A stretch of DNA of 35,420 bases from the NCBI GenBank assembly GCA_013286285.1, contig JABDGA010000011.1, positions 1-35,420 of the forward strand, written 5' to 3'. A program made the position numbers and the translations under genes. The stretch comes from Alphaproteobacteria bacterium. GTDB taxonomy: Bacteria > Pseudomonadota > Alphaproteobacteria > Rickettsiales > JABCZZ01. Positions 27,825-28,595 of the stretch are shown in pieces. The notes under the pieces were generated by a model. That model had not been told where the DNA came from and ran no database searches. It saw only the letters and a list, made by a program, of their open reading frames with translations. Position 1 is the stretch's first letter. Each line of letters starts with the position of its first letter.

Positions 27825-28595
27825 CTACGTTAGCAATACGAGGACAACCGCCCCTGCGATAATCACGTTTTCAATCAAATACTTCTTTGGAGTTGTAGGT
27901 TGCAGGTTGCAGGTTGCAGGCTTGAATTTATGCAACTTGCAACTTGCAACTTGCAACCCTGCCGCCATAGCAGCAACGGATACTAAGAAAATCAAGTGTG
28001 GCCAGTGCAGCCAGACGCCCGCCAGGACAAGCAGCTTCAGCACATCCGGAAATGCGGCCATATTGCGGGACATTGGCTTTCCGGATAATTTCCAGACAAT
28101 AACTCCTGCAATAAGCCCGCCGTAAGCCGTACCTGCAAAACTAAACAGTGTATGGTCAAACAACGTGCGGTATAGCATTCCGCAGACAAGACCGGCAATC
28201 AGCACCCTATCCGCAAAGAAATCGTCCAGTGTCAGCATGGCCGCCAGCATGAAAAAGGCCGTCATGCCCAGTGACACCAGAATGAAGGATTCAGTAAAGC
28301 CGAACTTCAGGTAGCAGAGCACGAATAACAGGGACGTAAACGCTTCCATCAGCGTATAGGCTGCTGGCACCGCCACGCCGCAATAGCGGCACTTGCCGCG
28401 CGTCATCAGCCAGGAAAATACCGGGAACAAATCACGGGTTTTCAGCGGCGCGCTGCAGCTGTCGCAGAAGGGATCGCGGACAAACAACGGCTCATTGCGT
28501 GGCAGCCGGTAAATCGGGCTGGTGGCTAAGTTACCGATAACCAGCCCCAGAAAGCCCGACCAGATGATACCGGGTAATAGGTCAAGAAGGGGCAT
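27825..28595 (-). CDS. Prepilin peptidase (A24 family), with in-frame repeat insert
   Basis: A type IV leader peptidase of 256 residues. The N-terminal helix ends [18 protein letters not shown]. The cytoplasmic zinc-type cysteines follow as FCDSC...GKCRYC, then about six membrane helices. The first catalytic Asp lies in [12 protein letters not shown]. The second motif, usually GxGDxK, is degenerate: [10 protein letters not shown] keeps the Asp but lacks the glycines. Residues of the form [21 protein letters not shown] near the C-terminus are encoded by a heptamer palindrome (27891-27959). The N-terminus looks complete, but no ribosome site is visible, because a short heptamer array lies just upstream of the ATG. 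No pilin gene is in the window. Confidence 0.8.
27891..27959. repeat. Heptamer palindromic element, copy B (inside prepilin peptidase)
   Basis: Three perfect GGTTGCA units (27898-27918), preceded by a degenerate unit, then a 12-nt spacer, then four units TGCAACT, TGCAACT, TGCAACT, TGCAACC (27931-27958). Arms pair over 21 bp with G-T wobbles at unit joints. The element is 69 bp, exactly 23 codons, and keeps the peptidase frame open. Confidence 0.85.

Follow-up and report, generated by a model that had tools for sequence, protein, structure and literature searches.

An in-frame heptamer hairpin in a prepilin-peptidase-like gene is probably an IVS-like mobile element in gene-less form

Introduction

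PF05635 denotes the protein associated with intervening sequences (IVSs) in 23S rRNA. Rickettsial palindromic elements (RPEs) are repeated palindromes residing in frame in unrelated functional genes. They are larger than the heptamer hairpins described here and have other sequences, and we know of no RPEs that are heptamer arrays or are tied to PF05635. In Coxiella burnetii, the rRNA IVS contains an S23p ORF with tandem heptamers adjoining it, and has been proposed to be selfish or mobile (PMC4990558). Four tandem GGGACCG 7-mers are found at 49 places in Geobacter metallireducens, both inter- and intragenic. The portion of that report drawn on here calls such families putative regulatory sequences and draws no link to PF05635 or mobility (PMC2700814). 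TAACTGA heptamers are dispersed 7-bp tandem repeats with species-specific abundance in Beggiatoaceae, cyanobacteria and Bacteroidetes. Unlike the arrays analyzed here, they are direct and mostly intergenic, and an inverted arrangement was observed once (PMC4679880). REP/RAYT systems are also short dispersed palindromes, some within ORFs, with an associated gene family. They differ in their GTAG or CGTC tags and tyrosine transposase, where the present system has heptamer arrays and PF05635 (PMC3733652). The separate pieces are known, and we found no open-licence paper that joins heptamer arrays, PF05635 and in-frame hairpins.

Results

The host gene and its additional loop

The 69-bp element is located at 27891-27959 on the minus strand of the window, the whole 35,420-nucleotide stretch of DNA that was analyzed. 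It lies in a 256-aa ORF (27825-28595, minus strand) whose sole Pfam domain is the Bacterial Peptidase A24 N-terminal domain (PF06750). The CxxC/CxxC motif is present. Active prepilin peptidases have a GxGD motif, which is absent from this ORF, its same-genus orthologue and the other closest homologues, and is kept in other paralogues within the order. Judged by its sequence, the host gene is a degenerate A24_N-type (prepilin-peptidase-like) paralogue. A preliminary description of this DNA had called it a prepilin peptidase gene, an identity that these features do not support as demonstrated.

The same description counted the element as exactly 23 codons and placed it between the last two membrane helices. 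Both statements are correct. The element makes up codons 213-235, or 23 residues, and the loop between these helices is short in 29 of 29 homologues and long in the window protein only. The same-genus orthologue is syntenic, 238 aa long, and has 15 residues where the window protein has 31; the array adds about 17 residues to the loop. The alignment with orthologues proposed earlier was carried out, and the segment is missing from both the syntenic orthologue and the 29 homologues. Downstream of the element, the in-frame sequence is conserved (ENVIIAG compared to EWAIIAG). This indicates that the host gene continues beyond the element, contrary to the possibility raised earlier that the true gene ends before it. 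The array is indeed open, as was also pointed out, but its openness is unremarkable because 50% of all heptamers contain no stop on either strand.

Anatomy of the hairpin

The element, AGTTGTAGGTTGCAGGTTGCAGGTTGCAGGCTTGAATTTATGCAACTTGCAACTTGCAACTTGCAACCC, consists of a G-rich 5' arm of four GTTGYAG-type units (27892-27918, plus strand), a 12-nt loop, GGCTTGAATTTA (27919-27930, unstranded), and an inverted arm of four TTGCAAC-type units (27931-27957, plus strand). The 27-nt arms are 85% complementary and are built of 7-bp units. Folding of 27891-27959 as ssDNA gave -23.3 kcal/mol, compared to -11.8 for shuffled sequences (z -5.3), and none of the 200 shuffles equaled it. GTAG, a tag of REP/RAYT palindromes, is confined to one variant unit in 27891-27959.

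Two additional hairpins in the window, both gene-less and unstranded, are composed of heptamers. The first has GGTTTCA/GGTGTCA units and is located at 29967-30032, upstream of the ORF at 28731-29957. The other is weaker, has GGTGTCA/GGTGCCA units and is located between sucC-like and mdh-like genes (26715-26767). Periodic tracts at lag 7 were found in the window only at 27891-27959 and 29967-30032, and Tandem Repeats Finder also called period-7 arrays at both places. No periodic tracts were found in the window at lags 5, 6 and 8-11, and none in 20 shuffles. The window also contains a perfect, spacerless 38-nt palindrome that lies in no ORF of at least 90 codons (12351-12388), and a non-heptamer inverted repeat, TTTTATATACCCATCGCAACT (33566-33611), with 21-nt arms that are 90% complementary and a 4-nt loop.

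Copies elsewhere in the genome

The assembly of this genome is half complete, and the copy counts cover our searches and the stretches around matches. In this half-complete genome, TTGCAAYYTGCAA with one mismatch allowed (the GTTGCAR family) produced 58 matches, compared to 2 for the reversed control, and the GGTGTCA family produced 38, compared to 4. Exact matches to TTGCAAYYTGCAA number 15 in this genome, one in G001 and none in G002, and are thus near-absent in congeners. Arrays are found within the long ORFs of valS, addB, mnmE, alr, trmB, lnt and a member of the uracil-DNA glycosylase superfamily. By inspection only, they are also found close to the ends of glyQ-, ALAS- and uppS-like genes.

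The stability of the hairpins, and the intergenic location of two of the three window copies, would fit a control element in RNA or DNA, with the hairpin positioned by selection as a site for processing, termination or protein binding. Hairpins in rRNA IVSs are RNase III sites (PMC4990558), and the heptanucleotide families of G. metallireducens have been interpreted as regulatory (PMC2700814). However, many copies lie within long coding regions of unrelated genes, and both occupancy and units vary among close relatives. In addition, no Rfam family reached its gathering score, and the sub-threshold matches were microRNA look-alikes only. We therefore consider a control element very unlikely.

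Cassettes with a PF05635 gene

Two PF05635 genes, and no more, were found in this incomplete genome, each within inverted arrays. The first cassette has arms of GTTGCAR units and is located between ilvH- and ilvC-like genes. The second has arms of GGTGTCA units. The genes of the C57 and C5 cassettes encode a PF05635/TIGR02436 four helix bundle of the S23p/IVP type, and the PF05635 profile matches the solved structures 2gsc and 2rld.

PF05635 is present in 52 of 299 sampled Pseudomonadota genomes. At 33 PF05635 loci, the median score of left against right arm was 38 for a locus's own flanks and 16 for swapped flanks, and lags 7, 14 and 21 were enriched solely beside the gene. Similar values were obtained for 74 more loci from Bacteroidota, cyanobacteria, planctomycetes, acidobacteria, Fibrobacteres, Clostridia, candidate phyla and others (own-arm median 32, compared to 16), about a dozen of which showed no arm pairing over background. 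Most of the roughly 107 loci are bounded by inverted arrays of ~7-bp units that are lineage-specific. Their polarity is fixed, the G-rich arm being the 5' arm in 62 of 65 loci. Lag-7 tracts number 137 at PF05635 loci, compared to 15, 2, 3 and 1 at lags 8, 10, 11 and 13, and arrays of 8- or 9-bp units bound a few of the genes (L204, L210, L245). Some of the lag-7 tracts at these loci are inside long ORFs, where openness alone is weak evidence for a gene. A 1064-codon open frame with about five GGGAGTC-type arrays is found at L202 (Phormidium sp. FACHB-1136).

These cassettes resemble the 23S rRNA IVS, in which an inverted-repeat stem encloses a PF05635 gene. The terminal inverted repeat is found in both the window copy and the PF05635 loci. 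The S23p/IVP ORF, a feature of some IVSs, is found in C57 and C5 and is absent from the window copy. Unlike IVSs, the copies are located outside rRNA, as is the window copy in its protein gene; many are gene-less and several are in frame in genes. No rRNA was found at any of the 20 cassette loci examined. As the longer copies of the family carry a PF05635 gene, rRNA IVSs are its closest relatives.

PF05635 proteins also resemble Avd (PMC10053308). Together with several arrays that replaced their target without lengthening it, this could point to templated replacement like that of diversity-generating retroelements, in which an Avd-like PF05635 protein works with a reverse transcriptase acting in trans. 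However, RVT_1 is absent from 10 of 13 PF05635-bearing genomes that are at least 90% complete, and we reject reverse transcriptase as the general partner of PF05635. RVT_1 was also not found in this incomplete genome. Such a retroelement-like origin is highly improbable.

Presence, absence and replacement

One intergenic site, between acyl-CoA-dehydrogenase-like and mmsB-like genes, was compared in 30 species of the G109 genus. It is empty in 19 and full in 10, and contains a gene-less hairpin in one. All 10 full sites contain TAGGCAG-armed cassettes, and the gene-less hairpin carries other units. No target-site duplication, a mark of MITEs of DDE transposons, was seen at this site, where some target bases were apparently lost; other sites are too diverged. 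TAGGCAG arrays are more numerous in genomes with a TAGGCAG-bounded cassette (median 33.5 compared to 4, p 0.0008), in a comparison that is not corrected for phylogeny and whose counts include the cassette's own arms. Arrays are also found in genomes without detected PF05635 (24 in G454 and 3 in G436). No excess of lag-7 tracts was seen in 20-kb samples of several PF05635-bearing genomes; PF05635-negative genomes were sampled too.

Within genes, the arrays have different effects on length. A net gain is found in valS and mnmE, the latter relative to G002 and typical homologues but not to G001. The glycosylase gene, alr, trmB and addB instead carry the array on codons that their orthologues also possess, with length almost unchanged, indicating that simple insertion is insufficient to explain all copies. 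In alr of G002, 7-periodicity is weak by eye and failed the scan. The glycosylase genes of G000 and G003 share two array sites, and the mnmE genes of G000 and G001 share one; the units differ in both cases. Either these sites were hit repeatedly, or the arrays persisted while their units turned over.

Such length-neutral replacement of native codons, the differing units at shared sites, and the native coding sequence that is flanked by two inverted arrays in addB would also agree with repeat dynamics driven by the host. Slippage and inverted template switching would make the 7-bp arrays in intergenic spacers and variable loops, and PF05635 genes would merely lie in them or be attracted to them. 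This explanation does not readily account for identical units at dispersed sites in one genome, whole cassettes present or absent at a single site, or the match between cassette units and those of gene-less copies. Nor does it explain inverted arms of fixed polarity beside PF05635 genes across phyla. We consider it fairly unlikely.

Discussion

We conclude that the 69-bp segment probably represents a mobile hairpin element of IVS-like type in its gene-less form (probability about 0.68). The units are repeated genome-wide, gene-bearing and gene-less copies match in their units, a single site is occupied by a cassette in some related species and empty in others, and copies reside in frame in conserved genes. 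Elements of this class consist of ~7-bp units in two arrays that face each other, the 5' one being G-rich. A full copy has a PF05635/TIGR02436 gene between its arms, and a short copy has only the arms and a small loop. The association with these genes suggests that the PF05635 protein may drive movement, binding the hairpin as RNA or ssDNA to aid the entry of copies at new places. Entry would exchange a short stretch of the target instead of duplicating it. A copy in a gene would persist only when it is in frame in a tolerant loop, and would then be translated.

Several observations count against this explanation. The window copy itself is gene-less, arrays are found in some genomes without detected PF05635, samples of several PF05635-bearing genomes have no excess of lag-7 tracts, and some PF05635 loci have unpaired flanks or 8- or 9-bp units. 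In four genes the replacement is length-neutral, unlike the outcome of a simple insertion. To our knowledge, no catalytic activity has been assigned to PF05635 proteins.

The preliminary description had likened the element to RPEs and proposed an independent case of a selfish palindrome turned into protein. As in RPEs, the palindrome is in frame in a gene and absent from orthologues, which makes the comparison an apt analogy without making the element an RPE. The second proposal agrees with a repeated in-frame palindrome that is missing from orthologues and has many genomic copies, several of them genic. What does not stand is its independence as an isolated parallel, since the palindrome is one of many related hairpins built of heptamer arrays, the longer of which carry a PF05635 gene. 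The palindrome may be selfish and may be translated.

More tentatively, heptamer-array hairpins and PF05635 genes may constitute a single widespread class of minimal mobile elements, of which the rRNA IVS is a special case that was found first. We give this somewhat less than even odds. Such elements would spread by putting array DNA in the place of short pieces of the target. Their units would turn over between species while the arms stay matched, and loops of housekeeping proteins would be rewritten repeatedly. This would provide a possible answer to the old puzzle of the nature of rRNA intervening sequences and S23p proteins, and to a second old puzzle, how bacterial proteins acquired unusual repeat peptides in their loops. 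If there is indeed one element class, the PF05635 gene is the predicted target for removal in a test, which could be performed in tractable cultured bacteria.
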